Virus record (IMG/VR): IMGVR_UViG_3300038306_000030
Location: 1 to 37,973 of that record
Source of the DNA: a virus
DNA: 37,973 bases
Direction: 5' to 3' (one strand)
Part shown: positions 11,415 to 29,299 of the stretch, in pieces
Position numbering within the stretch: position 1 is the first letter of the stretch
How the letters are laid out: the number at the start of each line of letters is the position of its first letter
Position numbers and translations under genes: made by a program
The notes under the pieces: generated by a model
Databases searched by the model: none
Told to the model about the DNA's origin: nothing
The model's input: only the letters and a program-made list of their open reading frames with translations

Positions 11415-11469
11415 GCCCCCTGATCACCCTCCGTTTTGTACTCGCTTGGATCGGGGGGCAGCTTTTTTT
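11415..11469 (+). terminator. Intrinsic terminator ending the late operon
   Basis: GCCCCCTGATC (11415-11425) pairs with GATCGGGGGGC (11449-11459), 11 bp with one G-U, and is followed by a T run (11463-11469) on the plus strand. The loop is 23 bases. It lies within the 3' end of the leftward repressor gene, so the rightward late operon and the repressor transcript converge here. Confidence 0.7.
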
Positions 11470-11792
11470 ATCCTTTCCTCCAGTTCAAATATTCGCTCAT
11501 CTCTTTCAACAATTTTCTCTAATAGTTTTTCGTACTTCAGTCTATACATATCCTCCTCCTCTTGAGTAAGAGTTTGTGCTTGAGTTTCATCTCCATACAT
11601 CAATCGCTTCATGTCCACATCAAGCGCTTTACAGATCGACTCCAGCAATGAGAGTTGACAGTTCCTGCCCCTGGCTAAACGCGTGTTCAGATTCGTTGGC
11701 GAGATATGTATCTCTTTTGCCAAATCCAACTGACTCATGCCACGCTCACGCAAAATGTTCTTTAAATTATACCTGAGATCCAAGTCTGCCAT
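11424..11792 (-). CDS. XRE-family phage repressor with C-terminal coiled coil
   Basis: A 122-residue protein starting at ATG 11792; a TTG at 11801 is less likely. Residues 8-65 form a Cro/C1-type helix-turn-helix (NILRERGMSQLDLAKEIHIS followed by PTNLNTRLARGRN). Residues 76-110 are a charged coiled coil for dimerisation. It has no S24 peptidase domain, so induction would not be by RecA self-cleavage as for lambda CI. It is divergent from the early operon across a 90-bp region with an operator-like repeat and a promoter, the usual lysogeny-switch arrangement. Confidence 0.8.
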   Translation of the reverse strand: MADLDLRYNLKNILRERGMSQLDLAKEIHISPTNLNTRLARGRNCQLSLLESICKALDVDMKRLMYGDETQAQTLTQEEEDMYRLKYEKLLEKIVERDERIFELEERIKKAAPRSKRVQNGG

Positions 11793-11795
11793 AAG

Positions 11796-11813
11796 ATTCA
11801 AAAATAATTGAAT
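11796..11813. promoter_or_regulatory. Operator-like inverted repeat at the repressor start
   Basis: ATTCAA-N6-TTGAAT is a perfect six-base dyad placed just upstream of the repressor ATG and next to the rightward promoter. It is a plausible binding site for the XRE repressor. A related half-site, ATTCA, lies in the promoter spacer at about 11828. Confidence 0.55.
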
Positions 11814-11819
11814 TAAGTG

Positions 11820-11849
11820 TTGACTTATTCACGTTCATTAGTATATAAT
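11820..11849 (+). promoter_or_regulatory. Rightward early promoter
   Basis: TTGACT (11820-11825), an 18-base spacer and a perfect TATAAT (11844-11849) make a good sigma-70 promoter. It is followed 32 bases later by the first rightward gene at 11882. It sits beside the repressor operator, so it is the likely lytic early promoter. Confidence 0.75.
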
Positions 11850-11881
11850 CGTTTTTATTAGGTATAGAAAGACTATAAGCT

Positions 11882-12124
11882 ATGAAAAATACTATGTCAA
11901 GTGAAATTAAGAATAATCCTACCAGGGCTGCTGGGTTAATCCCTTTTCCTAGCTTAACGGGCTGTCCCGATTCTCATGGATCTGGACAGTCTGGCCCTCC
12001 CTCTATAAGACAACGCATTGAAAACGAATTGGTTGGCGTTCCTTTGCATGTTCAGAAAGATGCACTTAAACATCTCCTCCATCTGCTCGGCAAGGAGAAC
12101 GCCAGCCATCTAAAAAAATTATGA
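11882..12124 (+). CDS. First early protein, 80 aa, unknown (Cro position)
   Basis: ATG 11882 is the first start after the early promoter. The N-terminal half is Pro/Gly/Ser-rich and probably flexible (IPFPSLTGCPDSHGSGQSGP). The C-terminal half is helical (IENELVGVPLHVQKDALKHL). The position is that of a Cro-like regulator, but no helix-turn-helix is evident. The stop overlaps the next ATG (ATGA). Confidence 0.6.
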   Translation: MKNTMSSEIKNNPTRAAGLIPFPSLTGCPDSHGSGQSGPPSIRQRIENELVGVPLHVQKDALKHLLHLLGKENASHLKKL

Positions 12125-14061: not shown

Positions 14062-15107
14062 CTGTACAGCGTTACAATGATTTGATGACGGCTGAGTACA
14101 ATCGTCAAGTCAACGGTCATGCGAGTTCACCCAAGCAGTTTTGGACTTGGCATCAAGGGGTATTGGCATACCTGAAGGAAAAAAAGATTCTTAAGACCAG
14201 CGATACGATGCGTTATTTTAACGTACTGGATCGCTACATTCCTGCCAATATGCCACTCAATGATATCTGCAATGATACCTTTGAGAAGTTGCGTGATGAT
14301 TCAGCGAGTAAAGGCTTGCATGAGAATCGCAGAACAAAGGGGAACAAACAGTCTGCTACGAATCGATATATTCAAGTTGCCAGAGCCGTTTTATATTTCT
14401 GTAAAACGAAAGGCACGAATGATAATCGCTGGGTACAGCAAGACCCTAATTTAAGAACGCATGATGAGGAAGCAGAAAAGAGAATTCCGTGGGTATTAAA
14501 TCACGAAGAAGAAATCCGTTTGCTCGATGCGTTGCCTGATCACTTGGCAGATATTGCCAAATTTATTTTACATACATCTGTAAGGTCTGGCGAAGCACTT
14601 AATTTGAAATGGAAGCAATTGCATTCCATGCCAGACATTGGCAGCTTCTTTTTAATTCCTGCCAGTGAGCATAAAAATAAGGAAGCAAAGCCTGTTTACC
14701 TAAACGCTGTGGCAGAAGCAATCATTGCCAAGTGTCGTGGCAAGCATGAGGAATATGTTTTTACTTACAAAGGGAATCCGATTAAAAAAATGTCACGCAC
14801 CGCATGGCCCAACGCAATGCAACGGGCGGGGCTTTGGGATACATCATCTGAAGCATTGGCACATGCTACAAATCAAAGGGCGCATTACCCAATACCTCAT
14901 GATCTAAGGAAGACATGCAACACCAGGCTCAAGCATCTGGGGATTCCTTTGGGAACTCGCCAGATGATACTAGGGCATAAGTCAGGGCATATCACTGACG
15001 ATGTGTACACTGTGGCGACCTTAGAGCCTTTTAAGACTGCTTTAGATCAACTCGTTGAAAAGGTTGAGCAAGTTGAAAAATTAACTTTACTTCGAGCGCT
15101 AAAATAA
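13929..15107 (+). CDS. Tyrosine recombinase (phage integrase)
   Basis: A 392-residue protein with AAAGGGAG before ATG 13929. The catalytic set is complete: R219 (TSVRSGEALNL), lysine around 252-254, H324-x-x-R327 (HDLRKT), H350 (LGHKSG) and Y360 (DDVYTVA). The N-terminal 180 residues hold the arm- and core-binding regions. attP lies 75 bases downstream. It performs site-specific integration into, and with Xis excision from, a host tRNA-Pro gene. The length is normal and no residue is missing. Confidence 0.92.
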   Translation: MSNKLPAGLQYKNGRYKVDKRYKPAPGYQSVRIQVTLGETSKTVAVQRYNDLMTAEYNRQVNGHASSPKQFWTWHQGVLAYLKEKKILKTSDTMRYFNVLDRYIPANMPLNDICNDTFEKLRDDSASKGLHENRRTKGNKQSATNRYIQVARAVLYFCKTKGTNDNRWVQQDPNLRTHDEEAEKRIPWVLNHEEEIRLLDALPDHLADIAKFILHTSVRSGEALNLKWKQLHSMPDIGSFFLIPASEHKNKEAKPVYLNAVAEAIIAKCRGKHEEYVFTYKGNPIKKMSRTAWPNAMQRAGLWDTSSEALAHATNQRAHYPIPHDLRKTCNTRLKHLGIPLGTRQMILGHKSGHITDDVYTVATLEPFKTALDQLVEKVEQVEKLTLLRALK

Positions 15108-15181
15108 TGTATCCTAATTACTGTATTTTCACCTCCGAAACGAAGGCGCACTTGATGAATGTTCCTAACCTACTGAAAAAA

Positions 15182-15226
15182 TGGTCGGGACGAGAGGATT
15201 TGAACCTCCGACCACTCGACCCCCAG
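15182..15226 (-). other. attP core: 3' half of tRNA-Pro(GGG)
   Basis: Read on the minus strand, these 45 bases form tRNA positions 32-76. They give loop CTGGGGG with T33, anticodon GGG and G37, a T arm GGAGG-TTCAAAT-CCTCT, the acceptor strand CGTCCCG, A73 and CCA. Upstream of position 32 the anticodon stem no longer pairs, so this is not a whole tRNA. It is the tRNA-derived identity block used for integration. The T arm and variable region resemble those of E. coli tRNA-Pro(GGG). Crossover probably occurs at or near the anticodon loop. Confidence 0.85.
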
Positions 15227-15283
15227 CGTTTTACCCTCCATTGTAACACGTTTAAATCCAACATTAACAATCACCTAGTTTTT

Positions 15284-15320
15284 CCATTCGTTGCCATTCG
15301 TATGCATTCGTATGCCATGC
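15284..15320 (+). repeat. 10-bp phased CATTCGT repeats beside attP
   Basis: CCATTCG at 15284, CCATTCG at 15294, GCATTCG at 15304 and a degenerate GCCATGC at 15314 recur with an exact 10-base period, one per helical turn. They lie between attP and the methyltransferase start. They could be integrase arm-type sites or a regulator array for the methyltransferase gene. The rest of 15108-15353 shows no gene apart from attP. Confidence 0.7.
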
Positions 15321-15348
15321 GCCACTGGAATTCTACTAAAGGAGGAGA

Positions 15349-16434
15349 ATGATGTGGCTATACATCCCAAGAGAATATTGTCCTTGTTCGCCGGAATTGC
15401 TGGACTCGATCTCGGAATTCGGCTTGTTTTTCCAGAATCTAGAACTGTCTGTTTCGTTGAGCGGGAAAGCTACGCAGCGTCCGTACTCGTGGCGAGGATG
15501 GAAGACAAGACCCTGGATGAAGCTCCTGTCTGGAGTGACGTTACAACCTTCGACGGCAGCAAGTGGAATGGAGTTGTGGATACAGTCGCTTTTGGCTTCC
15601 CGTGCCAAGACCTCTCAGTCGCAGGCAAGCGCAAGGGAATCAAGGAAGGGACACGATCAGGGCTGTTCTTTGAAGCCTGCCGAATTATTCGCCAAATACG
15701 ACCAAGGTATCTTTTTATCGAAAACGTCACAGGACTCCTTTCTAACAAGTTCATGTCAGTCGTACTCGGAGAACTTTCCGAAATGGGGTTCGATGCACAG
15801 TGGGGAGTGTTTTCGGCAAGAGATGTGGGTAGCACCCATCTTAGAAAAAGAGTCTTTATCTTGGCCTACGCCAAACACAAGTGATCAACACAATCCGAAT
15901 ATGTCGGACAACCACGATGTAAAAAAAAGTTATCTGAGAGGGGTGGCTGCATCATGGCCTACGCCACGCATGAATGATTTTAAGGGACATTGTACAGACG
16001 CTACTACAAGAAAGGATGGCAAATGTCGGAACGATCAATTACAGAACGCAGTTATCCATACTGGCCCTTCGGCCCCGGTGAAACAGAACAATGGGAGCGA
16101 CTCCTCAAAGAGCGCCCCGATCTCGCCCCAGCCGTTGAAAAAGGCGACTTGGGCAACTCCAGTAAGGCCAGCACAAAAAGAGTCGGAAACATCACTTGGC
16201 AGATGGAGAAAAGAGAGAGCGAGTTACGGCAAGGAGCTTCAGACGCAGGCAACGGAATTAACGATGAACTTGCCAAAGCGGAGGCTCAATCCAAAATTTG
16301 TCGAACACCTGATGGGGATGCCCCCTGGCTGGAGCTTGCCAATACCTATCGATCAGAACGTCTTCAAGCGCTGGGAAACGGAGTCTGCCCGCTTACTGCG
16401 GCTCTTGCATTCTCGGTCTTATGGGAACGAATGA
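15349..16434 (+). CDS. Methyltransferase-associated overlapping ORF (WPTP / LNPKFVE type)
   Basis: This frame is open for 361 codons across both methyltransferase parts. From about residue 140 it shows a recognisable pattern: SWPTPNTSD, SWPTPRMND and ATPVRP repeats, then LNPKFVEHLMGMPPGW. I recall similar proteins overlapping Dcm genes in many phages. The last motif resembles cytosine methyltransferase motif IX (R-E-x-x-R-L-x-G-F-P), which the zero-frame products lack. The first 110 residues mirror the Dcm frame and may not be translated, so the true start is unknown and probably internal. Confidence 0.6.
   Translation: MMWLYIPREYCPCSPELLDSISEFGLFFQNLELSVSLSGKATQRPYSWRGWKTRPWMKLLSGVTLQPSTAASGMELWIQSLLASRAKTSQSQASARESRKGHDQGCSLKPAELFAKYDQGIFLSKTSQDSFLTSSCQSYSENFPKWGSMHSGECFRQEMWVAPILEKESLSWPTPNTSDQHNPNMSDNHDVKKSYLRGVAASWPTPRMNDFKGHCTDATTRKDGKCRNDQLQNAVIHTGPSAPVKQNNGSDSSKSAPISPQPLKKATWATPVRPAQKESETSLGRWRKERASYGKELQTQATELTMNLPKRRLNPKFVEHLMGMPPGWSLPIPIDQNVFKRWETESARLLRLLHSRSYGNE
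15354..15884 (+). CDS. Cytosine-C5 DNA methyltransferase, motifs I-VIII (N-terminal part)
   Basis: GTG 15354 is preceded by GGAGG eight bases away. The 176 residues contain motif I LFAGIAGLDLG (11-21), motif IV GFPCQ with catalytic C84, motif VI IENV (123-126) and motif VIII RKRVF (164-168). They then stop at TGA 15882. Two more in-frame stops follow before the same frame reopens at 16023 with motif X. Target-recognition and motif IX regions are absent from this product. Either the gene is broken or it is one subunit of a split enzyme. The methyltransferase would protect phage DNA from restriction. Confidence 0.85.
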   Translation: MAIHPKRILSLFAGIAGLDLGIRLVFPESRTVCFVERESYAASVLVARMEDKTLDEAPVWSDVTTFDGSKWNGVVDTVAFGFPCQDLSVAGKRKGIKEGTRSGLFFEACRIIRQIRPRYLFIENVTGLLSNKFMSVVLGELSEMGFDAQWGVFSARDVGSTHLRKRVFILAYAKHK

Positions 16435-20139: not shown

Positions 20140-20539
20140 TGCCGAAATTAATCCTGCCAAGAAGACCAATCCCTATCTCCCAGACTTACTGGTGGAGGGA
20201 AGAGTGGCGGAACTCAAGACAAGACGCACTCCCTTCTTCAAGACAGAACAGTACGGAATCTCCCCTGATACAGCTACGACAATTAACGAGAAAGATATTG
20301 AAAGATACATCAGAACGAATCCGGGCATGGTGGTCTTCTTCTGGGTCTACTGGCCCAAGCAGGAACGATACGGAGTCGAAGTAAAAGAATGCTGCGGTGT
20401 GTGGTTTGCCCGAATGGACAAGCTTAAAAAGATATGCGACTCAGCGCCAGTAAAGACTTATGAAAATAGATCAGGTGAGGATGGCAACAAGTTAACCAGT
20501 TACATCATCGACTTAAACGATTTGAGGCAAATGTTTTGA
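20027..20539 (+). CDS. PD-(D/E)XK nuclease-like protein
   Basis: The likely start is ATG 20027, giving 170 residues; the frame is open from 19976. Active-site pattern: E25 in GSRYEKEFVK, PD at 52-53 (NPYLPDLLVEGRV), then E62-L-K64. This matches the restriction-endonuclease-like fold. The region after residue 110 contains FFWVYWPKQERYGVEVKECC. Candidates are a resolvase, a recombination nuclease or a restriction-type enzyme. A downstream VRR-NUC gene suggests a nuclease pair. Confidence 0.65.
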   Translation: MTRRLKPPASNENKSAWIDLGSRYEKEFVKLLRRHGVNAEINPAKKTNPYLPDLLVEGRVAELKTRRTPFFKTEQYGISPDTATTINEKDIERYIRTNPGMVVFFWVYWPKQERYGVEVKECCGVWFARMDKLKKICDSAPVKTYENRSGEDGNKLTSYIIDLNDLRQMF

Positions 20540-20700
20540 AACGACTTAAAGAAACATGGCAGAAAATCCGGCAGACCAACGCCAGGATTAAGGCGGACAA
20601 GAGGAATCGAGCGCTTGACGAATGGCGCAGGAGCCATCCGCAAGAGTATGCCAGTTGGTTAGCAGCAGGATGCCCGGACATTTTTATATATAGGGGTTAG
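20536..20700 (+). CDS. 54-aa basic protein with TTG start
   Basis: The frame opens at TTG 20536, overlapping the preceding TGA, and ends at TAG 20698, directly before the next ATG. The product KRLKETWQKIRQTNARIKAD continues KRNRALDEWRRSHPQEYASW and is a highly basic helix followed by LAAGCPDIFIYRG. It fills the gap between two nuclease genes exactly, which supports reality. Function is unknown; binding nucleic acid is plausible. Confidence 0.6.
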   Translation: MKRLKETWQKIRQTNARIKADKRNRALDEWRRSHPQEYASWLAAGCPDIFIYRG

Positions 20701-21144
20701 ATGAGCGAATCGACTGAACAGCAGGCGCTATTTGAATGGGCTGCAATCTATGCCAGGGAAACACCTGAGTTAGACCTGCTCTACGCCATTCCTAACCAGG
20801 GCGGAGCAGGCTACGGAGCAATGCGCCGTGGTATGAAAATGCGAAAAGAAGGCCAAAAAAAAGGGATACCCGATCTAGTTTTACCAGTTAGACGCGCCAA
20901 CTGGAATGCGTTGTACATCGAAATGAAGGATGTAAAGGGGGGTAGGATGAGTCCGCACCAGTTAGACTGGATGAGTAAGCTTTCCTTGCATCAGAATTGC
21001 TGCGTGTTGGCGCATGGATTCGAGGCTGCCAGGGAATCCATTATGGAATACCTATCGCTCAACGATGCCATAGGCGACGCAGGCGGCAACAACGGAGCGC
21101 ATGACGATCCATTTGGCGATGGGCCGTATCGAATATTTAGATAG
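20701..21144 (+). CDS. VRR-NUC domain nuclease
   Basis: A 147-residue protein whose ATG directly follows the previous TAG. The VRR-NUC signature is complete: E6-Q7-Q8 at the N-terminus, AIPNQGGAGYGAMRRGMKMR, GIPDLVLP (D58) and LYIEMK (E74, K76), then MSPHQLDWMSKL. This family consists of PD-(D/E)XK structure-specific nucleases common in phages, often next to replication helicases. It is the last gene of the rightward early operon and meets a leftward gene 2 bases later. Confidence 0.88.
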   Translation: MSESTEQQALFEWAAIYARETPELDLLYAIPNQGGAGYGAMRRGMKMRKEGQKKGIPDLVLPVRRANWNALYIEMKDVKGGRMSPHQLDWMSKLSLHQNCCVLAHGFEAARESIMEYLSLNDAIGDAGGNNGAHDDPFGDGPYRIFR

Positions 21145-21146
21145 CT

Positions 21147-21377
21147 TCAGTTAGACTTGTTGATAAGACTTTCGTTCCATACTTCAGAAAGAGGAACGTT
21201 TAGATCAACGGTCTGTAAACGAACATCGGTGCAACCGTGTTTTTTGCGCAACTGCTTCATTACATCTTCAGCTTGTTTTAAACTTTTTGCCTGGGTGTAA
21301 AGAACTTCCTCGCGCAAAGCCTCGATCTTTTCTTTATTGCCTTCGGGAACACCCCAAATAATATATTCATTTTTCAT
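21147..21377 (-). CDS. Hypothetical protein (76 aa)
   Basis: The start ATG (21377) is preceded on the minus strand by AAAAAAGGGAGAA, the leader type shared by this leftward gene group. The product has a short beta start (MKNEYIIWGVPEG), a helix (NKEKIEALREEV) and KKHGCTDVRLQTVDLNVPLS. No family is recognised. It ends 2 bases from the convergent VRR-NUC gene. Confidence 0.6.
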   Translation of the reverse strand: MKNEYIIWGVPEGNKEKIEALREEVLYTQAKSLKQAEDVMKQLRKKHGCTDVRLQTVDLNVPLSEVWNESLINKSN

Positions 21378-21424
21378 ATCAATTCTCCCTTTTTTAAAAC
21401 AACGCCAGTTAGACTGCTATTTAA

Positions 21425-21637
21425 TTACAGCAGCCCCTGGCGCTTGAAATTTTCCAGACCCTCCTCGACAAAGTGCCGGATAAGCTCGGAAATAGTATAA
21501 TTTCTTGTTACGCCATCCTGGTCAACGTAAGTTTGAGCTTTTGCCGCTTCCTGCAATGCTTTTAAATCAACGCCAGTTAGACGGAATTTTACGATCTCGC
21601 TTAGTCGTTTCTCTGGATCAAGCAAATGTGCTGGCAT
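21425..21637 (-). CDS. Ribbon-helix-helix-like small regulator (70 aa)
   Basis: ATG at 21637 with ACAGGAG upstream. After a short N-terminus, KRLSEIVKFRLTGVDLKALQ could be the beta strand and first helix of a ribbon-helix-helix fold. YTISELIRHFVEEGLENFKR gives the second helix with the usual S-E-L-I-R pattern. Such proteins bind short dyads as dimers. CAGTTAGAC sites flank and lie within this gene, so it is a candidate autoregulator of that array. Confidence 0.55.
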   Translation of the reverse strand: MPAHLLDPEKRLSEIVKFRLTGVDLKALQEAAKAQTYVDQDGVTRNYTISELIRHFVEEGLENFKRQGLL

Positions 21638-21658
21638 AGTGACTCCTGTTTTAAAATT

Positions 21659-21718
21659 CAGCGCCAGTTAGACTCGCCATTCGGCTCGTAAAAAAAACTC
21701 GCCAGCGCCAGTTAGACT
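21659..21718. repeat. Duplicated 16-mer flanking a segment repeated inverted at 24844
   Basis: Two exact CAGCGCCAGTTAGACT copies (21659-21674, 21703-21718) flank a spacer. ACTCGCCATTCGGCTCG (21672-21688) is exactly the reverse complement of 24844-24860. ACTCGCC recurs at about 21697. No gene lies in 21638-21786. A small hairpin, AAGGG-N6-CCCTT, at 21726-21741 may end the leftward gene 21787-22203. Confidence 0.7.
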
Positions 21719-21786
21719 GCGAAATAAGGGTTTAATCCCTTGCGCGGACGTATTGCAATGCTTGCCAATAACGCCCTGGTAAAGGA

Positions 21787-22203
21787 TTAATCGTTGATTA
21801 ATTCGATGGAATAATCTTTTATAGTGAATTCAAAGCCTTTTTCATACATTGTTATATTGTCGCAACCGTTTAATTTATTATTGAGTAATAGATTTGGCAA
21901 TTCGTTTGCGTCCCATTTATTAGTCAATCTAATAGTTGCTTCATTATTATCGCCATCATAAAAATTGATATAGTCTGTTTGCCTTGAAATATCATTTAAT
22001 CTATCGCGCAAACATTCTATATTTTTATTTAAATGCTGCATATCTGCGCCACGCTCTGGCAGCTGGTAAACATACGTTGCGCCAATATATTCATCTTTAG
22101 CTTTGTCGTATGCTCCATCCCTTGTTTTAAACTTTTTTTCAATATGCTTTTTAACAGTGTTCAAAGATTGTTTAGTCGTAACCTTAATTAAATATTCATT
22201 CAT
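21787..22203 (-). CDS. Hypothetical protein (138 aa)
   Basis: ATG 22203 is used in preference to a TTG nine bases upstream. AAAAAGGGAGC precedes it. The product MNEYLIKVTTKQSLNTVKKH has a charged helical N-terminal half, a central DRLNDISRQTDYINFYDGDN and a beta-rich end. AT content is high relative to the structural genes. No family is recognised; it is probably an accessory protein acting on the host. Confidence 0.6.
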   Translation of the reverse strand: MNEYLIKVTTKQSLNTVKKHIEKKFKTRDGAYDKAKDEYIGATYVYQLPERGADMQHLNKNIECLRDRLNDISRQTDYINFYDGDNNEATIRLTNKWDANELPNLLLNNKLNGCDNITMYEKGFEFTIKDYSIELIND

Positions 22204-22221
22204 AATATTCAAGCTCCCTTT

Positions 22222-22302
22222 TTAAATAAACATCATTAGTAAAGCGAATAAACAAATTAAAAACAGTACAAAGCAATCTATAAGGATTTGTTTTAAACTC
22301 AT
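22222..22302 (-). CDS. 26-aa membrane microprotein, coupled to the upstream gene
   Basis: On the minus strand the stop of the 22302-23000 gene overlaps this ATG (TAATG). The product begins MSLKQILIDCFVLFLICLFA and ends LLMMFI, one hydrophobic helix. It sits neatly between two genes and leaves the AAAAAGGGAGC leader of the next gene free. This is plausible but small. Confidence 0.45.
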   Translation of the reverse strand: MSLKQILIDCFVLFLICLFALLMMFI

Positions 22303-23000
22303 TATTCAAATCCTCCGGCACGTGCGCCATGCGCCGTGATAGTAATATCCGCAGCTTGTTTAGATCCATTGCATAAAAGACAATCAATGCATTGCTTCCC
22401 TTTATTTTCTGCCGGGCATGTAATCTCTCTATAATATTTTTCCATCCTATTAGAATTGCGAAATTCAGTTTTAGGAATAACGCGAAAAGTCCTAAAGCCT
22501 AGTTTTTTGGCCTTATCTTTTAAATCGTAACTTTCGACGCTTGCCATAAAATATTTGCTTAAGCCAGGAAAGCGCTTCCAGCTATGGGTATAGCCGGTAA
22601 AATCCTTGCAATTTTTAGTAATTGCATTTATTAGCCATAGTGGCAATGCTGCCGGATCACCATAAGCGCCGAAGCGGATAATAAGATTATAAAGATAACG
22701 CCAATAATCACTTTTATTCAATTGCCCATATACGCCGCGCTTATATGCGTTGTAAACAGATAATGGGCCTTGGAATAAAACAACATAGCAATTGTCTTTT
22801 ATAGGGCAATCGCCACAAACTGATATATCTTTACCTTGTTTTTTGGCAATGTGTGGCGGCGTATCTTCGCGCATAATCCATAGCTGCGCCATATTGCCTG
22901 TTTTAATATTTGTGGATTGCAATGTTAATATTACTACTATTGTTTCGCCGTCGATACGCGATGGGCCTTTGTATAGGACATAACCTTTAGGATGTGACAT
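22302..23000 (-). CDS. Conserved cysteine-rich phage protein (DUF7227-like)
   Basis: A 232-residue protein; ATG 23000 follows AAAAGGGAG. The N-terminus, GYVLYKGPSRIDGETIVVIL, is followed by cysteine clusters: VCGDCPIKDNCYV near residue 60 and CPAENKGKQCIDCLLC near 200. The motif RFGAYGDPAALP lies in the middle, and TGYTHSWK follows. This layout is common in phage and plasmid genomes, but no activity is known to me. The cysteines suggest metal binding, possibly iron-sulfur. Confidence 0.7.
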   Translation of the reverse strand: MSHPKGYVLYKGPSRIDGETIVVILTLQSTNIKTGNMAQLWIMREDTPPHIAKKQGKDISVCGDCPIKDNCYVVLFQGPLSVYNAYKRGVYGQLNKSDYWRYLYNLIIRFGAYGDPAALPLWLINAITKNCKDFTGYTHSWKRFPGLSKYFMASVESYDLKDKAKKLGFRTFRVIPKTEFRNSNRMEKYYREITCPAENKGKQCIDCLLCNGSKQAADITITAHGARAGGFE

Positions 23001-23025
23001 TGTTAAAATCTCCCTTTTGTGTTAA

Positions 23026-23114
23026 AAGGGAAATAGCAAGCGCTCAAAAGTTTGCTAAATCCCTTGTGGATTGCGTCGTCTATCTATTCAAAGTAGATAT
23101 GGCGACGTTTTTTT
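23026..23114 (+). terminator. Two hairpins; second is a plus-strand intrinsic terminator
   Basis: AAGGGAAATAGCAA (23026-23039) pairs with 23052-23065 (12 of 14), a hairpin just upstream of the 23000 gene's ribosome-binding site on the minus strand. Next to it, CGTCG-TC-TATCTA (23074-23086) pairs with TAGATA-TGG-CGACG (23094-23107), followed by seven T residues (23108-23114) on the plus strand. The second hairpin would stop rightward transcription although the genes on both sides run leftward. Confidence 0.55.
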
Positions 23115-23448
23115 ATTTGCAAAATTGAATATATTGAATAGTTCTAAAACCATAAATGCTACAATTTTCTTTAATAACTACGCCATTTTTTGCTTTGTAT
23201 ACTTGTTCGCCGTAATCAATAGCTTGTCCGTTTTTATGTGTTGATAAATGTCTACTTTTAATCTGATATCGTAAATCTTTTAAGCTTTTATATTTACTGG
23301 TAGGAATTTTTATTGTTTTTTGATGGAATACTCTTTTCGGTTTTTTGGCAACAATATCATTTTCTTTATAATATTTAGGCCATGCTTTGCGCCATGCTTC
23401 TACATGAAAAAACCTATCTACTAAATATTCATTTATTATTATTCCCAT
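23113..23448 (-). CDS. Hypothetical protein (111 aa)
   Basis: ATG 23448 follows the shared leader AAAGGGAGATTTAAAAC. The product is basic and Tyr/Lys-rich (RKAWPKYYKENDIVAKKPKR, TIKIPTSKYKSLKDLRYQIK), with a C-terminal VYKAKNGVVIKENCSIYGFR. No family is recognised. AT-rich codon use suggests an accessory gene acquired separately from the virion block. Confidence 0.55.
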   Translation of the reverse strand: MGIIINEYLVDRFFHVEAWRKAWPKYYKENDIVAKKPKRVFHQKTIKIPTSKYKSLKDLRYQIKSRHLSTHKNGQAIDYGEQVYKAKNGVVIKENCSIYGFRTIQYIQFCK

Positions 23449-23466
23449 TGTTTTAAATCTCCCTTT

Positions 23467-23745
23467 TTATTGATTTAAAAAATAAGCAAAGTTAATACAG
23501 CATTGTACTTTGTAGTCATAACCATAAAATTCCACATGCTTTGATAATTTTTCGCATGGGAAATTTGTTTTTCCAGCAAACAATTCAGTTGTTATAGATA
23601 AATTTCCGCGGATTTGGAACTTATCTAGTTCTTTGTGAATCAATTCTGGATTGTCAATTCCTATCACCTTGATAATGTCCCTTGCTAATATTTCAGATTG
23701 CTCTTCTCTCGTTCTATCCTCCAAATTGACTTGTAAATTTTCCAT
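23467..23745 (-). CDS. Hypothetical protein (92 aa), first gene of the leftward operon
   Basis: ATG 23745 follows AAAGGGAGATTTAAAAC, the same 17 bases used by the next gene. The N-terminus is acidic and helical (NLQVNLEDRTREEQSEILAR); the C-terminus is beta-like (VEFYGYDYKVQCCINFAYF). It lies about 55 bases downstream of a consensus-like promoter. Function is unknown. Confidence 0.6.
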   Translation of the reverse strand: MENLQVNLEDRTREEQSEILARDIIKVIGIDNPELIHKELDKFQIRGNLSITTELFAGKTNFPCEKLSKHVEFYGYDYKVQCCINFAYFLNQ

Positions 23746-23799
23746 CGTTTTAAATCTCCCTTTATAGTAGTGGTTTAAACTTGTGTTACAACTTCCATA

Positions 23800-23827
23800 A
23801 TAATAGTCTTAAACAAATATTTGTCAA
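23800..23827 (-). promoter_or_regulatory. Leftward promoter with palindrome in the -35/spacer
   Basis: On the minus strand a perfect TTGACA (23822-23827), a 16-base spacer and TATTAT (23800-23805) precede the leftward operon. ACAAATATTTGT (23813-23824), a perfect 12-base palindrome, covers the end of the -35 box and part of the spacer, a good place for a repressor to act. Confidence 0.7.
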
Positions 23828-23964
23828 GATAATTCGTAATATTTCTTTATATATAGGGATATTTTTTTGTCGCTGATTTGCCGATTTACCGGGAAGCTAG
23901 GATATGAGTTGTATTAGAATATGAGCTTAAAACGGATTTGAGAGCCTGGTATTTTGGGATTGAT

Positions 23965-23977
23965 GGCAATGTTTGCC
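23965..23977. repeat. GGCAA-TGT-TTGCC dyad, related copy at 21755
   Basis: GGCAATGTTTGCC is a five-base dyad. The surrounding 40 bases resemble 21755-21793 (GCAATGCTTGCCAATA, then CCTGGTAAAGGATTAATCG against CCTATAAAAGGATGGATCG). Nothing else is recognised in the noncoding gap 23828-24020, which is AT-rich. Confidence 0.45.
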
Positions 23978-24020
23978 AATATTCCTATAAAAGGATGGAT
24001 CGGTGAATTGTACGGCTATT

Positions 24021-24350
24021 CTATATGGTAGGATTTTCCGGAGGATTGTCGGAGGATTGCTGCAATGCGGATTGTTGGCCCGCTTCAAAGGATGCCTGGT
24101 GAGCCAGTTGATCAAGGTGATTAGTAATGAGATATGCCATTATGTCGGACATTGATACGCCAAGCTTCAATGCTAATGCCTGGAATTTCTGATGCTCAAT
24201 TGAAGTAAGACTGCAAATTACCTTGCGAGGATATCGGCGAGATACCTTGTCTTTTAATGTTAGACTTCGCATACCCGGCTTAAATCTTCCCATTGAATCT
24301 CTTTGATCGCCGTATGGGTTGCCCCTGGATCTTCGCCGTTGCGTTGTCAC
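24021..24350 (-). CDS. CopG/ribbon-helix-helix-like regulator (109 aa)
   Basis: The product starts with a basic arm (MTTQRRRSRGNPYGDQRDSM), followed by RRYPRKVICSLTSIEHQKFQ, a beta strand plus helix, and GVSMSDIMAYLITNHLDQLA, the second helix with the S-x-S-D-I pattern of CopG-like DNA binders. The polar C-terminus is rich in Gln/Ser. It lies downstream of the divergent control region at 25191-25303 and could be one of its regulators. Confidence 0.6.
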   Translation of the reverse strand: MTTQRRRSRGNPYGDQRDSMGRFKPGMRSLTLKDKVSRRYPRKVICSLTSIEHQKFQALALKLGVSMSDIMAYLITNHLDQLAHQASFEAGQQSALQQSSDNPPENPTI

Positions 24351-24382
24351 TGAAATGTTACTGGCTCCATAGGGTAGGGTAG

Positions 24383-24413
24383 GCTAACTCATTGTTAGCG
24401 TGGATGCTATAAT
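24383..24413. promoter_or_regulatory. Perfect dyad GCTAAC-N5-GTTAGC with adjacent TATAAT
   Basis: GCTAAC (24383-24388) and GTTAGC (24394-24399) form a perfect six-base dyad, 33 bases upstream of the 24350 start. TATAAT lies at 24408-24413 on the plus strand without a good -35 box, so it is not called a promoter. The rest of 24351-24596 shows nothing recognisable. Confidence 0.4.
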
Positions 24414-24596
24414 GTAAGCGAACGTGCTTATAAATGAAGTGATTGATATTTTTTGCCGCTTTGAAATGTGAATTTTAAAATGATGACCCCAAAGAAATTT
24501 TTTTCATCATCGATAAATGGTTCCCCCACACGTATTAAACCAATTTCCAAGCCGTGCCACAGCATAGCCCTGTAGGGTTGCAACACATCGTATCAT

Positions 24597-24833
24597 CTAG
24601 TCCTCTGCTATTAAGTCGCAGCCATCGTCCATAACGCGCTTGAAGAAATCCCTCAGTGTATCGTCATTCATCTCTTTGAAGCATTCGGCAAAATCGTACA
24701 CCAGAGGCTCGCCATCGATATCCAGTATTTTGCCAAAGGTAATAGACGCTGTCAGAAAATGAGTATGCCCTGATTTGATGGCATCTTTGATGGAGAGATC
24801 ATCTGGATCGTCGGTAAAGGGGTCTTCAAACAT
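24597..24833 (-). CDS. Very acidic small protein (78 aa)
   Basis: ATG 24833 has CGGAG upstream. The product contains 21 Asp/Glu against 7 Lys/Arg, net about -14 in 78 residues, beginning MFEDPFTDDPDDLSIKDAIK. Strong acidity is typical of DNA-mimic anti-restriction or anti-repressor proteins, but no such family is recognised. It is the first leftward gene beyond the divergent control region. Confidence 0.55.
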   Translation of the reverse strand: MFEDPFTDDPDDLSIKDAIKSGHTHFLTASITFGKILDIDGEPLVYDFAECFKEMNDDTLRDFFKRVMDDGCDLIAED

Positions 24834-25190
24834 AGCGTAGCTCCGAGCCGAATGGCGAGTTTTTTAATTTTTTTTTATGGCATTCTTTTGCTTTTCCCGC
24901 TGAAGCGGGCAAGTTAACGAAGTTCTAATCTATTGATAGATAGACTGCTCCGCAGGAGTGTAACATCAAAGACATAAACAACAAGCTTGGAAAACCTCGT
25001 AAAAGACACTCGGTTTTCGGGAGTGAGTAAAATATTTGTCTTGTTAAACTCCGTTTGTAAATATGTCTTGTGAAGAATATTACAAGTAATAGTTTATCAT
25101 ACTTTGAGTGAAATGTCAAGGATATAATGCACCTTGCAGTATATTAGTTTCTATGGCATGTACTATACCTGATTATCCATAATCTCGCTA
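24834..25190. other. Noncoding region with several small hairpins
   Basis: No credible gene is seen in this AT-rich stretch. Small hairpins are CCCGCT-GA-AGCGGG (24896-24909), CTCC-GCA-GGAG (about 24947-24957) and CACTC-N8-GAGTG near 25008-25025. 24844-24860 is the inverted copy of 21672-21688 and reaches the ribosome-binding site of the acidic protein gene. It may be an untranslated leader of the leftward transcript starting near 25213. Confidence 0.45.
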
Positions 25191-25299
25191 CACCATATGT
25201 TGTGGTATCTGTTGTGGTAGGTATACCATATGTAGTGGTATGATGTCAATGTATACCATATATGGTATTAGTGCTTGACAAACACCACTATATGTGGTA
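25191..25299. promoter_or_regulatory. Operator array TACCA-N7-TGGTA (four sites)
   Basis: Sites: 25191-25207 (CACCA-N7-TGGTA), 25224-25240 (TACCA-N7-TGGTA), 25254-25267 (TACCATATATGGTA, a perfect palindrome with N4) and 25283-25299 (CACCA-N7-TGGTA). An extra half-site TGGTA lies at 25215. The sites occupy the spacers of two divergent promoters, so one bound dimeric protein could control both directions. Confidence 0.75.
25220..25249 (-). promoter_or_regulatory. Leftward promoter of the divergent pair
   Basis: On the minus strand TTGACA (25244-25249), an 18-base spacer and TATACC (25220-25225). The spacer contains the operator 25224-25240. It would transcribe the acidic protein and the CopG-like regulator genes. 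Confidence 0.5.
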
Positions 25300-25303
25300 T
25301 AAT
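25275..25303 (+). promoter_or_regulatory. Rightward consensus promoter of the late region
   Basis: TTGACA (25275-25280), 17 bases, TATAAT (25298-25303): a perfect sigma-70 consensus. The operator 25283-25299 fills the spacer and touches the -10 box. Transcription would enter the block holding lysis, terminase and head genes. A consensus promoter this strong is expected to be tightly repressed. Confidence 0.8.
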
Positions 25304-25351
25304 GGTTGTGCAAGTATATAATGGGATATTTATAAGTTATGGCAAGCATGA

Positions 25352-25603
25352 ATGAAAAGTTCGCGACTGGTAGTACGCAGGGAACTCACAAAGCCTTGCC
25401 TGAGAGAAATTGTACACGATGCAGACACCTGGCTTAAAGAACATTCATCGGATGTGTCGATTCCATCCAGTTGGCCTGAGCCTTGGCAGTTCTCAGCGCA
25501 TTACATTGGGGTTCGTGAAATTCCTTATGGATTGATCAAGGTCGATCCGCCCAATGAGGACGACAGCGAATTGCCAAACATGCGGACACCTCAACCTGAT
25601 TGA
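25352..25603 (+). CDS. Hypothetical protein (83 aa), first gene after the late promoter
   Basis: ATG 25352 lies about 45 bases after the predicted transcript start and lacks a clear ribosome-binding site. The product has LREIVHDADTWLKEHSSDVS and WPEPWQFSAHYIGVREIPYG, plausible for a small globular protein. An alternative frame from ATG 25339 gives a 32-residue peptide ending NCTRCRHLA. Which one is made cannot be decided from sequence alone. Confidence 0.4.
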   Translation: MKSSRLVVRRELTKPCLREIVHDADTWLKEHSSDVSIPSSWPEPWQFSAHYIGVREIPYGLIKVDPPNEDDSELPNMRTPQPD

Positions 25604-25742
25604 CAAGGAGGTGATCTTTGGATCTGTTTTTGACTGGTATGTCTGCGCTCAATGCGATGACGTTTATGTCAAATCCCAGTATGGCGAGTGGATCGAATCG
25701 AATCCGTATCAGGAATACATACAAACTTTAAAACCTTGGTAA
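25554..25742 (+). CDS. Small zinc-ribbon protein (62 aa)
   Basis: The product carries NCQTCGHLNLIDKEV, then WYVCAQCDDVYVKSQYGEW: two CxxC pairs separated by 22 residues, a zinc ribbon with aromatic residues. It overlaps the preceding frame by 50 bases. Candidates are a transcription regulator of the late genes or a packaging accessory; position alone suggests the former. Confidence 0.6.
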   Translation: MRTTANCQTCGHLNLIDKEVIFGSVFDWYVCAQCDDVYVKSQYGEWIESNPYQEYIQTLKPW

Positions 25743-25746
25743 AGAA

Positions 25747-26079
25747 ATGACTGTAAAGAAAAACCCAAACGCTGATTCACCAGGGGACTTTGTTGGACGA
25801 GGGGGTCTAGGCGCTGGTGGAGGCAGAACTTACACTGGCTCTACGGGTGGCAAAAGTATCGTCACTGGTAAGAAGAGTTCTGTTTCAGATAAGACTAAAG
25901 AGAAGTTGAAGGAGAAGAAGAAAGAGGAAAAACTATCTAAAGAAGAAGCTAAAAAATTAAAAAAAATTTTAGATCGTAGAGATAAAGAATGGAGAGATTT
26001 AGCTAAAAAAGAAGAAAAATATGCGAATAGGAAACCTGGTGAATTGAATAAACTTTTTCCAGGGAAAAAATCTTGGTAA
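25747..26079 (+). CDS. Lysine-rich low-complexity protein (110 aa)
   Basis: The N-terminal 45 residues are Gly/Ser/Thr-rich (GRGGLGAGGGRTYTGSTGGK). The remainder is a Lys/Glu helix (KEKLKEKKKEEKLSKEEAKK). The stop overlaps the endolysin ATG (TAATG). No family is recognised. The K/E helix may bind DNA or the cell envelope. Confidence 0.6.
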   Translation: MTVKKNPNADSPGDFVGRGGLGAGGGRTYTGSTGGKSIVTGKKSSVSDKTKEKLKEKKKEEKLSKEEAKKLKKILDRRDKEWRDLAKKEEKYANRKPGELNKLFPGKKSW

Positions 26080-26444
26080 TGGGCGACTTAACAGAACATT
26101 TCTCCAGAAAAGAATTCGCATGTCAATGCAATTGCGGCTCGGACAAGATATCAGCAGAACTGGTATCGAAGCTTGAGATAGTCCGCCTGATGTATGGCAA
26201 ACCCATGAAGGTAACATCCGGCATACGCTGCGATACGCATAATAAAAATGTGGGTGGCAGGGATGATTCTGCACACCTGGATGGATTAGCGGCGGACATT
26301 GCTGTTAACGGATGCTTTGAGAGAGATCAGTTGGTAGGGTTTCTCAGGACTCATTTTTCAAGAATGGGCATAGCAAGGAATTTTATTCACGTTGATGTAG
26401 CGGATGAGGCGGGTAAGCCGTCACCGTGTTTATGGGTGTATTAA
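26079..26444 (+). CDS. Endolysin, peptidase M15-type D,D- or L,D-endopeptidase
   Basis: A 121-residue protein from ATG 26079. The zinc site of the M15A family is visible: S64-x-H66-x2-G-x3-D73 (SAHLDGLAADI) and H104-x-D106 (FIHVDV), after VTSGIRCDTHNKNVGG. The N-terminus, LTEHFSRKEFACQCNCG, is also typical. It cuts peptide cross-links in peptidoglycan at the end of infection. There is no signal peptide, so a holin is needed for release; a candidate lies two genes downstream. Confidence 0.88.
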   Translation: MGDLTEHFSRKEFACQCNCGSDKISAELVSKLEIVRLMYGKPMKVTSGIRCDTHNKNVGGRDDSAHLDGLAADIAVNGCFERDQLVGFLRTHFSRMGIARNFIHVDVADEAGKPSPCLWVY

Positions 26445-26725
26445 GAAAGCAGATCAAAGAGCTTGTGCCGGAGCAGCCGATTCAAATTGAATGGGAAGAC
26501 GCTGGCGATATTGAGGGCGAGAACGCCTGGGCTGATTTGAGTGATGTGAAGAAGTACAACGAGATCCCTGTCAGAACCGTAGGCTTTTTTCTGAAAGCGA
26601 CAAAGAAGACGATTTACTTTTGCAACAATATTGAAAGCAGTGACAAGGACAATAAGTGTACGGCAATACGGGGGCAGATCCCCATAGGGTGCATTAATAA
26701 AATTAACAAACTAGAGGTGCAATAG
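26432..26725 (+). CDS. Hypothetical lysis-region protein (97 aa)
   Basis: The start is ATG 26432 or GTG 26426, overlapping the endolysin end. The product contains IQIEWEDAGDIEGENAWADL and VGFFLKATKKTIYFCNNIES, suggesting a small beta-barrel. It resembles short phage proteins of unknown role often found among lysis or packaging genes. Its stop is directly before the next start. Confidence 0.6.
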   Translation: MGVLRKQIKELVPEQPIQIEWEDAGDIEGENAWADLSDVKKYNEIPVRTVGFFLKATKKTIYFCNNIESSDKDNKCTAIRGQIPIGCINKINKLEVQ

Positions 26726-26914
26726 ATGGTCAAGGTATTGATCGAGATGATTGACAAGGTAGCTCCTGGGTATAAAACCTATGCGTTGATGGCAATAGGT
26801 TTTGGCATGATGGTTTGCCAGATGCTTGGGTATCACCAGTTTCCACAGGAAGCATGGGGATTACTTGGTATTGGCGGAGCAGCGACTTGGAAGATGGGGC
26901 AAGACCGTAAGTGA
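26726..26914 (+). CDS. Holin candidate (62 aa)
   Basis: Residues 17-36 (KTYALMAIGFGMMVCQMLGY) form one membrane span, and a second short hydrophobic stretch (AWGLLGIGGAATWKMG) follows. The end is charged (GQDRK). Size, topology and the position just after the endolysin fit a small class II or III holin. It overlaps the next gene by 4 bases. Confidence 0.6.
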   Translation: MVKVLIEMIDKVAPGYKTYALMAIGFGMMVCQMLGYHQFPQEAWGLLGIGGAATWKMGQDRK

Positions 26915-27126
26915 CAACGCTGATCATTACTCTGGTGATCGGAGTAGGGGCAGTAATTTATCTAATCAGAATTGGCAGACAACTTGAAAAATCTGGAAGC
27001 TATAGAGCGGCATTGGGGATTCATGGAAAAATCAACAAGGTGCGCGACGCAATACGCAAAAAACGCAACGATAAGATTAAGCGCATGGATGATGACCCTC
27101 GTTCTGTTTTTACTTCTGACGAGTAG
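26911..27126 (+). CDS. Inner-membrane spanin-like protein (71 aa)
   Basis: GTG 26911. Residues 3-20 (TLIITLVIGVGAVIYLIRIG) form a signal anchor, followed by a basic helical region (IHGKINKVRDAIRKKRNDKI). It overlaps the lipoprotein gene at 27089 in another frame, as i-spanin genes overlap o-spanin genes. It is shorter than most i-spanins, so the assignment is tentative. Confidence 0.5.
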   Translation: MTTLIITLVIGVGAVIYLIRIGRQLEKSGSYRAALGIHGKINKVRDAIRKKRNDKIKRMDDDPRSVFTSDE

Positions 27127-27322
27127 TTGTCAATCGTTCCCTGGGGAAGGTATTAATGTTGCCTATCCCTTGCGCCCCGTAGACCCGGAGTTATCGTTTG
27201 AGGATGTCGGAGGGCATTGCATCGATGACGGGGAACTAAGAAGGCTGGGGATATTTTACATCGATAGTAAGGCGTATTTTGATGCAACAGAAGCCATACT
27301 CGATGCGGTTAATGGTAAATAA
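27089..27322 (+). CDS. Lipoprotein, possible outer-membrane spanin (77 aa)
   Basis: The likely start is ATG 27089 (MMTLVLFLLLTSSCQS): a short signal peptide with lipobox-like T-S-S-C, then a periplasmic domain (FPGEGINVAYPLRPVDPELS) with one more cysteine. An upstream in-frame extension to 26972 would destroy the signal. Embedded overlap with the inner-membrane protein gene supports a spanin pair that fuses inner and outer membranes. The lipobox lacks Leu at -3. Confidence 0.5.
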   Translation: MMTLVLFLLLTSSCQSFPGEGINVAYPLRPVDPELSFEDVGGHCIDDGELRRLGIFYIDSKAYFDATEAILDAVNGK

Positions 27323-27791
27323 CATCGCGGCACACATACTAATACTCGCGTTGGCCTTGCCAGGAGCCGCACTTGCAGACTGGATACATGACGAGGGTGT
27401 TGTTGAACCTCCACAGGAAATGATCCTCGGATGGAATGTCAATGAAATCCCTGGCAACGTAACGATTTACTACGATGTCAACGGGGATCGCAAACCTGAT
27501 ATCGTTTTCGCACATTCGATCAGGTATATGAATAGCGGGGTGCAATGTGATGCTAAGAAGGTTGGGAATGAACATTACTGGATCTATACCACATGTCCGG
27601 CAGATCACGCCGCCGATTATTTTATTTATAAGAAGTGGACACTATACAAATTTATAGGCAGCGGATGGAAGAGAGTGTATCAACATGTTGAACGAAATGA
27701 GCGAGACGGAACGTGCCGCATTCAACAAGACAAACAAGGCTCTGGGAATCAGGACTTACAAGGAGCAGGAGAAAGCTGTACAGGAAACTGA
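27303..27791 (+). CDS. Secreted protein with signal peptide (162 aa)
   Basis: Starting at ATG 27303 the protein has a Sec signal (MRLMVNNIAAHILILALALP then GAALA-DW, with an A-L-A cleavage site). The mature part contains VTIYYDVNGDRKPDIVFAHS, a calcium-binding-like D-x-N-G-D loop, and three or four cysteines (QCDAKK, TTCPAD). It overlaps the terminase small subunit gene by 107 bases, so its C-terminal 35 residues may be dispensable. Secretion from the host suggests envelope modification or superinfection exclusion. Confidence 0.6.
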   Translation: MRLMVNNIAAHILILALALPGAALADWIHDEGVVEPPQEMILGWNVNEIPGNVTIYYDVNGDRKPDIVFAHSIRYMNSGVQCDAKKVGNEHYWIYTTCPADHAADYFIYKKWTLYKFIGSGWKRVYQHVERNERDGTCRIQQDKQGSGNQDLQGAGESCTGN

Positions 27792-28038
27792 AGACCTTGG
27801 AGTTGCTGGAACTATCAAAAAAGCGGTTGCTAACATTGGAGGAGTGGAAGAGCTTACCGCCTGGGCAAGATCCTCAGATAGAAATCGCAGAGAACTTTTT
27901 GGATGGTACGCAAAATTAGCGCAGAAAGAAGAGAACGACGTTGGCTTAAAAGTTCAAGTGAACATCGTAAATTATAATGGCGACCCTGACACTACCACAC
28001 AAGTTTACACCGAGGAAGTACCAGCTCCCTCTGTTTGA
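27685..28038 (+). CDS. Terminase small subunit (putative)
   Basis: A 117-residue protein immediately before, and overlapping, the terminase large subunit. LGVAGTIKKAVANIGGVEEL followed by TAWARSSDRNRRELFGWYAK matches the G-G-V-x-x-L-x-x-W-A...Y-A-K-L pattern seen in small terminase-like phage proteins. The N-terminal 40 residues would contain the DNA-binding helix. Assignment rests mainly on position and this motif. Confidence 0.6.
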   Translation: MLNEMSETERAAFNKTNKALGIRTYKEQEKAVQETEDLGVAGTIKKAVANIGGVEELTAWARSSDRNRRELFGWYAKLAQKEENDVGLKVQVNIVNYNGDPDTTTQVYTEEVPAPSV

Positions 28039-29299
28039 AGCCTTTGATAATGGTATCAAGCGGGCGGTACTCGTTTGGCATCGACGCTCAGGAAAAGATA
28101 AATGTTCTCTCAACCTCTGCGTCAAAGAAATGTTTCAAAGAGTCGGACAGTATTACCATCTGTTCCCGACAGCAAGACAGGCAAGGAAGGCCATATGGGA
28201 TGGCATTGATAAGGCTGGTTTAAAAGTCATGGATCATTTCCCAAAGGAATTGATCAAGAGCAAGAATGAAACGGATATGAAGATAACTCTCTCAAACGGG
28301 AGTATCTATCAGTTGGTTGGGACAGACATGGGACTCGATTGGCTCGTCGGGACAAATCCTGTCGGGCTGATCTTTTCCGAGTATCCGATTATGACACCGA
28401 AAGCCTGGGATTTAATGCGCCCTATTGTAAGAGAAAATGGCGGATGGGCTTTATTTATTTATACACCGCGTGGTCAGAATCATGGTCATAAGATGTATGA
28501 AATGGCGGATAAGAATGATCAGTGGTTTTGTTCACGGTTGACAGTGGATGACACGAGGCGTGATTCGGTGGGTGAAGACGGATCGCCAGTAGTCAGCCCA
28601 GAAGACATTATTGATGAGGAACGTGAAGGACTTAGTCCAGAGCTAATACAGCAAGAGTATTTTTGCAGCTTCCACGCGGCAATCCCCGGAGCGTACTTTG
28701 CCAGGGAGATGACGAGGGCGGAAGATGATGGAAGATTTTTAAATATACCGTGGGAATCGAAGATAGATGTCGAGACAGCATGGGATCTTGGTATTGATGA
28801 TGCCACGGCAATTATTTTTTACCAGACGGTAGGTAATGAAATTAGATTGATTGATTATTACGAGGCCAACGGTGAGGGATTACCACACTTTATCAACGTG
28901 CTTAAAAGCAAGCCTTACGTTTATGGGGCGCATCATGCGCCGTGGGATATTGAAGTGCGAGAACTTACTACAGGCAAGAGCCGCAGGGATACGGCACGGA
29001 GTCTGGGAATCATTTTTACAGTCGGTAAAAAAGTACGAGCAAAAGAAGAAGCAATCGAACAGGGACGACAAATAATTTCCAAGTGTTGGTTTGACAAGGT
29101 GAAATGTGAAAAGTTGATTTCATCGTTACGCAATTACCATAAAGAGTTTGACAACAAGATGGGAGTCTATAAGAAAAACCCAGTTCATAACTGGGCCTCG
29201 CATGGGGCTGATGCTTTCATGCAAATGGCAATGGATTACAGAACGCCGAGGACATCCGCATTACAAACCGTGGCAGAACAGGAGTTTGATATTTTCTAA
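27977..29299 (+). CDS. Terminase large subunit
   Basis: A 440-residue protein. The ATPase has a Walker A variant WHRRSGKDK (34-42), Walker B VGLIFSEY (about 129-136) and coupling motif FIYTPRG. The RNase H-like nuclease starts with AWDLGIDDAT (268-277) and ends with HGADAFMQM. Length and motifs fit terminases of podoviruses with small genomes. It packages the concatemeric genome into the procapsid. The stop overlaps the next ATG. Confidence 0.92.
   Translation: MATLTLPHKFTPRKYQLPLFEAFDNGIKRAVLVWHRRSGKDKCSLNLCVKEMFQRVGQYYHLFPTARQARKAIWDGIDKAGLKVMDHFPKELIKSKNETDMKITLSNGSIYQLVGTDMGLDWLVGTNPVGLIFSEYPIMTPKAWDLMRPIVRENGGWALFIYTPRGQNHGHKMYEMADKNDQWFCSRLTVDDTRRDSVGEDGSPVVSPEDIIDEEREGLSPELIQQEYFCSFHAAIPGAYFAREMTRAEDDGRFLNIPWESKIDVETAWDLGIDDATAIIFYQTVGNEIRLIDYYEANGEGLPHFINVLKSKPYVYGAHHAPWDIEVRELTTGKSRRDTARSLGIIFTVGKKVRAKEEAIEQGRQIISKCWFDKVKCEKLISSLRNYHKEFDNKMGVYKKNPVHNWASHGADAFMQMAMDYRTPRTSALQTVAEQEFDIF

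Follow-up and report, generated by a model that had tools for sequence, protein, structure and literature searches.

Genomic context of the locus

Between two diverging gene blocks of an uncultured virus lie divergent promoters with four related inverted repeats in and around them, which raises the question of what these repeats do and which protein, if any, recognizes them. The window (the whole stretch of DNA analysed, positions 1 to 37,973 of IMG/VR record IMGVR_UViG_3300038306_000030, 37,973 bp) encodes an integrase, a RecE-like exonuclease, a gp2.5-like annealing protein and a primase/helicase, as well as an M15 endolysin, a terminase, a portal-type protein, a major head protein and an internal virion protein. 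It is the genome of a temperate, podophage-like virus. An XRE-type repressor gene (11424-11801, minus strand) faces the rightward early block. A leftward gene block extends from about 25.1 to 21.1 kb and the late genes, read in the rightward direction, start at 25.35 kb, with the dyad and promoter region between both. The first gene on the late side, R83 (25352-25603, plus strand), has no family assignment. The M15-peptidase endolysin (26073-26444, plus strand) is the first recognizable late gene, and the terminase large subunit is found at 27977-29299 (plus strand). No late activator was recognized in the window among the proteins scanned.

An open reading frame after the integrase (15107-15352, plus strand) reads WSGREDLNLRPLDPQ, the kind of peptide typically encoded where a reading frame crosses a tRNA-derived attachment site. 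The region is a possible attP, although tRNA calling gave no tRNA.

Promoters and dyads

The late promoter PR (25275-25303, plus strand) faces the lysis and structural genes. It had been described as a perfect TTGACA-17-TATAAT promoter, and it indeed matches the consensus at 12 of 12 positions with an extended TGG before the -10 element. No other 12/12 sigma-70 match (spacing 16-18) exists in the 37,973-bp window, and the mean in 50 shuffles is 0.02. The match is also 12/12 in the related contigs L006, L008, L009, L012, L028 and L025, and 11/12 in L011.

The original prediction also included a leftward TTGACA-18-TATACC promoter. This sequence is present (PL1, 25220-25249, minus strand) and is a possible promoter that agrees with the consensus at 10 of 12 positions, the final T of the -10 element being missing. 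Its TTGACA is kept in six close sequences (the window, L006, L008, L009, L011 and L012, the last with a 17-bp spacer), and a pattern with the 18-bp spacer did not find it in L028 or L025. PL1 is probably not the main leftward promoter because it is confined to this close group, whereas PL2 (25091-25119, minus strand), which the original prediction lacked, is present in all 11 sequences examined with 8 to 12 of 12 matches (8/12 in three). PL2 reads TTGACA-17-TAAACT with an extended TATGA (extended -10 TATGATAAACT), and its aligned register is TTTACT-17-TAAACT in L011 and TTGCTT-17-TAAAAT in L025. It leads into a structured leader RNA, and no dyad lies over it.

Four TACCA-N7-TGGTA dyads had been proposed, one within each promoter spacer and two adjacent. 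Four related dyads do occur at 25191-25299, but the exact form is found in D2 only: D1 (CACCATATGTTGTGGTA, 25191-25207) and D4 (CACCACTATATGTGGTA, 25283-25299) begin with C, and D3 (TACCATATATGGTA, 25254-25267) has a 4-bp spacer, giving TACCA-N4-TGGTA. The placement holds for D2 (TACCATATGTAGTGGTA, 25224-25240) in the PL1 spacer and for D4 in the PR spacer, each of which also overlaps the first two bases of its -10 element. The right arm of D4, TGGTA, doubles as the extended -10. D1 lies outside both promoter cores and D3 between the two -35 elements. The centres of D1 to D4 are 33, 28.5 and 30.5 bp apart in the window, and about 30 bp corresponds to three helical turns.

Scanning the whole window for TACCA-N7-TGGTA with at most one mismatch, plus the exact N4 form, yields seven sites, four of them within 120 bp. 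Dinucleotide shuffles (200) have a mean of 0.88 sites and a maximum of two within 120 bp, so that no such cluster appears in any of them; this statistic overstates the cluster because the motif was picked after the site was seen. The scan of the rest of the window, a check asked for earlier, finds three further matches (6436, 19828 and 26149), all intragenic. There is no such site at the XRE repressor region (11796-11849). A motif-blind count of dyads in 25180-25310 was compared with 2000 local shuffles. With 6-bp arms and at most one mismatch there are 17 dyads against a mean of 8.4 (reached by 56 of the 2000 shuffles), with exact 6-bp arms 2 against 0.77 (reached by 398), and with 7-bp arms 8 against 3.1 (reached by 103). 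Counted in this motif-blind way, dyads exceed local shuffles only moderately, and conservation in relatives is stronger evidence for the dyads than shuffle counts.

Conservation of the array

Scans of viral contigs recovered the whole dyad region in five related contigs (L006/L019, L008, L009, L011 and L012), and gene order is kept in further contigs (L025, L028, L055, L027, L038 and L037). All four dyad positions can be recognized in the close group. Mean pairwise identity was calculated over four sequences (the window, L008, L012 and L011), with L006 and L009 left out because L009 hardly differs from L008 across the switch and L006 is close to the window. D1 to D4 have identities of 0.82, 0.81, 0.85 and 0.80. 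The values around them are lower: 0.41 upstream, 0.64 in the D1-D2 interval, 0.60 after the PR -10 element and 0.68 at the start of the next gene. Part of the conservation of D4 is due to the extended -10 TGGTATAAT, and the value for the PL1 -35 element is too low because L012, although it does have TTGACA, is shifted there in the alignment.

D1 and D4 show symmetric double changes. D1 reads ACACCA..TGGTGT in L006 and ATACCA..TGGTAT in L008. For D4, the window has CACCAC..GTGGTA and L012 the perfect dyad TACACT-ATAT-AGTGTA. The 6-bp arms of D1 are perfect in L006, L008, L009 and L011 and weak in L012 (4/6 arm pairs), D2 is weak in L008/L009 (4/6 arm pairs), and only in the window and L006 does D3 have good symmetry. 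The distance between dyad centres stays at 27.5-33 bp across the window, L006, L008, L012 and L011. Other dyads accompany the 12/12 PR of two further contigs. L028 has TACACTTTATACTGTA in the spacer and the dyad TACTACA-AGA-TGCAGTA upstream. In L025 PR is immediately preceded by a perfect AATACAC-GGGTTA-GTGTATT, and a TACAC or GTGTA arm is common to these sites and D4 of L012. No TACCA-type dyads were found at PR in L038, L037, L055 or L027. Synteny and conservation together lend good support to the original view that a second regulatory region, distinct from that of the XRE repressor, faces the late genes. The array is real and conserved as a regulatory element, ordinary in kind and somewhat unusual in target and layout.

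A candidate repressor in the leftward operon

The leftward operon encodes a 109-aa ribbon-helix-helix (RHH)-like protein (24021-24350, minus strand, GTG start), which we propose as the repressor. The original prediction gave no coordinates for its CopG-like protein; among the three products that it named for gel shift, 24021-24350 is the best candidate regulator, rather than 21425-21637 or the XRE protein. A profile search finds relatives in 10 of 16 related records: nine contigs (L008 and L039, where it is cut, and L011, L012, L025, L028, L038, L046 and L055) and L037, where it is at the other contig end, as expected of a circularly permuted record. Six of the 16 records give no match. G003, G005 and G007 end before its place, G012 is a 12.8-kb, more distant relative, and in the two long records G013 (36 kb) and G016 (40 kb) the profile search found no relative. 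Since the L037 contig starts near the switch region and ends with the gene of the RHH-like protein, its map may be circular or permuted.

The RHH assignment is uncertain, combining weak-to-moderate profile matches with a modest structure model and consistent structural neighbours, none of which is a strong match by itself. Alone, the window protein has no match to Pfam or PHROGs at E 0.1, and its match to ParG (E 0.15) is below the cut-off. The family profile against PDB sequences gives ParG at E 0.03, a DUF1778 antitoxin at 0.31 and MazE7 at 0.89. In Pfam, the NikA-like family matches two of seven members, and the best values for any relative are 2.6e-6 (NikA-like) and 1.1e-4 (TacA1). RHH proteins have a strand-helix-helix core of about 45 residues, and their dimers read paired half-sites through the strand pair. 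The AlphaFold model (pLDDT 74, pTM 0.40) places helices at 50-63 and 67-100 after an extended stretch at 43-48, with the strand not formed in the monomer. Its structural matches are mostly RHH proteins (AtaR, TacA, CopASO, PutA, MatP, AmrZ, CopG and ParG; Z 3.5-6.5), and Foldseek gave no match below E 0.001.

The residues that we take, by analogy with CopG, to contact DNA are K43, I45 and S47 in the window, R, Y and A in L012, R, Y and S in L011, and R, Y and A in L028. Because they vary within the dyad group and L028, which has a different operator, shares R, Y and A, operator and protein do not track cleanly. The distant relatives L038 and L055 have the 109-aa protein yet lack TACCA dyads at PR.

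Proposed mechanism and alternatives

We favour the reading, with a probability of roughly 0.6, that D1-D4 are the operator array of this phage-encoded RHH protein and that PR is shut until the repressor falls. From the sequence we infer promoter activity, binding of the 109-aa protein to the dyads, repression by that binding and the trigger of its relief. Occlusion is the natural reading because D4 fills the late-promoter spacer. With its right arm serving as the extended -10, D4-bound protein and RNA polymerase should exclude each other, and since D2 lies over PL1, protein bound there and polymerase at PL1 should likewise do so. By analogy with Arc and Mnt of P22, PR and the near leftward promoter of the repressor's own operon would most likely be repressed in this way.

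The 109-aa protein would be expressed from PL2, the unobstructed upstream promoter, which is free of dyads, so that its synthesis could go on with PR shut. Its dimers would occupy the TACCA/TACAC half-sites of D1-D4, dyads that follow one another along the same face of the DNA at intervals of about three helical turns. Occupation of D4 would fill the PR spacer and keep a very strong late promoter closed, and occupation of D2 would shut PL1 so that the repressor limits its own synthesis. Once the repressor drops, through dilution by replicated phage DNA or through an antagonist, PR would fire at once with no activator needed. An extended version is tentative: the late operon of this clade may be timed by de-repression, combining an ideal sigma-70 promoter, a dedicated RHH repressor, cooperative four-site binding and a new, single-copy structured leader RNA in the repressor's operon that tunes repressor supply, and replacing a Q-like activator or a phage RNA polymerase.

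Another protein might use the same sites. A host regulator or a different phage product is an unlikely binder; hosts are known, in general terms, to control phage promoters, and the product of 21425-21637 (minus strand) belongs to the same left operon and has a 77% identical relative in L011, but it lies at the far end of the operon and was found in only 1 of 16 records, many of which end before the gene. Still less probable is that the dyads are operators of the CI/Cro-like XRE repressor (11424-11801), in which case a single immunity system would also keep the late promoter silent in the lysogen. Its HTH_26 match (E 1.9e-9) fits this idea, as XRE proteins often bind dyads of 14-17 bp and the operators of lambda, 17 bp long, have a comparable outer arm. 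However, the XRE promoter region lacks such a dyad, which an autoregulator would be expected to have, and a relative (31% identity) occurs in 1 of 16 related records, most of which do not reach the gene.

Least probable is that no protein is involved and that the dyads are a by-product of facing AT-rich extended -10 promoters, which give TGGTATA/TATACCA echoes. The TGGTA arms of D4 and D2 are also extended -10 elements, and the motif-blind excess is moderate. D1 and D3, on the other hand, are outside both promoter cores and equally conserved (0.82 and 0.85), which favours an array over a promoter echo; nor does a promoter require the left arms and the double changes, and the regular spacing is kept. 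The 21425-21637 product is a second small protein that looks RHH-like by eye and has no significant family match.

Comparison with known systems

The repressor array proposed here recalls the immunity I region of P22 (Arc, Mnt, ant and the sar antisense RNA) in three features, all putative here: a small RHH repressor of the phage encoded close to late genes, control of its own synthesis, and operators over promoters. The operator in P22 Pant lies over the promoter. The P22-type arrangement of a repressor candidate beside a divergent promoter pair with dyads over the promoters is seen here, the RHH assignment and PL1 being uncertain. Unlike in P22, rightward transcription from the array would enter the late operon rather than a recognizable antirepressor gene, there are four dyads, and the RNA is a structured leader, whereas sar is antisense. 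No ant homologue was recognized, the first gene right of the array (R83) having no family match in Pfam or PHROGs, and Arc and Mnt are not among the matches of the 109-aa profile to PDB sequences. Arc and Mnt exemplify phage RHH repressors with autoregulation and the P22 immunity region also has a small RNA (PMC2629481).

As in ParG, the strand-helix-helix part of the 109-aa protein is predicted to come after an N-terminal tail that is basic and probably loose, and in this respect the protein resembles the ParG/CopG/AmrZ group. The operator sequence differs from theirs, and no par ATPase partner was recognized among the proteins scanned. Binding by RHH proteins involves dimers and higher assemblies, and the majority of these proteins act as repressors (PMC3325190).

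Lambda OR/OL likewise has several related dyads between divergent promoters that overlap promoter cores. The candidate regulator here is probably not of the helix-turn-helix class, unlike in lambda, and the promoters face late and accessory operons instead of two early ones. In a lambda-type OR the repressor gene adjoins the operators and its promoter carries the same ones; here, the XRE gene is 13 kb away, and there is no such dyad at 11780-11905.

Distribution and significance

A collection scan with a loose PR+D4 pattern gave at least 118 new loci. Among the matches listed, only L205 and L267 have a TACCA array with the neighbouring genes, and these are contigs of L011 and L009; L254, also among those listed, has a weak endolysin match alone. 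DNA similarity searches found nothing for 24000-27500 in 50,697 phage records or for 24900-25400 in 72,556 plasmid records, and the 109-aa protein has no match in the phage records. When bacterial genomes were scanned for the terminase, 80 loci were obtained, many in Alphaproteobacteria. No host is assignable because these loci have at most 55% identity and a profile search at E 1 found the 109-aa family at none of them.

Searches of open-access literature listed no account of this arrangement. As a switch the array is credible and conserved in evolution, and its general type is a familiar one. If the proposal is true, it offers a simple scheme for late-gene timing in uncultured temperate podophage-like viruses and ties uncharacterised RHH-like proteins to defined operators.

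Leader RNA and P78

The region from PL2 to the first leftward gene (24838-25085, minus strand) folds better than shuffles (z -3.6). Its structured leader RNA (24892-25022, minus strand) has hairpins at 24990-25018, 24917-24953 and 24896-24909. Across eight sequences, 95.4% of 237 cells are paired, compared with 34-45% when the partners are slid, and nine cells show double changes against a shuffle mean of 2.3, a number reached by 0 of 500 shuffles. Rfam has no family for this RNA in 20500-28000 and gives one sub-threshold match elsewhere (23545-23625, E 0.74). The leader RNA model occurs once per record in 8 of 16 records (E 2.2e-16 or better), with three further matches in these records (E 0.1 to 0.5) on the opposite strand at the same place. 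Searches with the model, one of them over 43 loci, gave no further copy in the window and no match in records outside the clade. The HK022 put RNA is a thinkable analogue.

The first gene of the left operon encodes P78 (24597-24833, minus strand), a conserved 78-aa protein with no family match and no convincing structural match for its model. P78 is acidic, with 21 D/E against 7 K/R residues.
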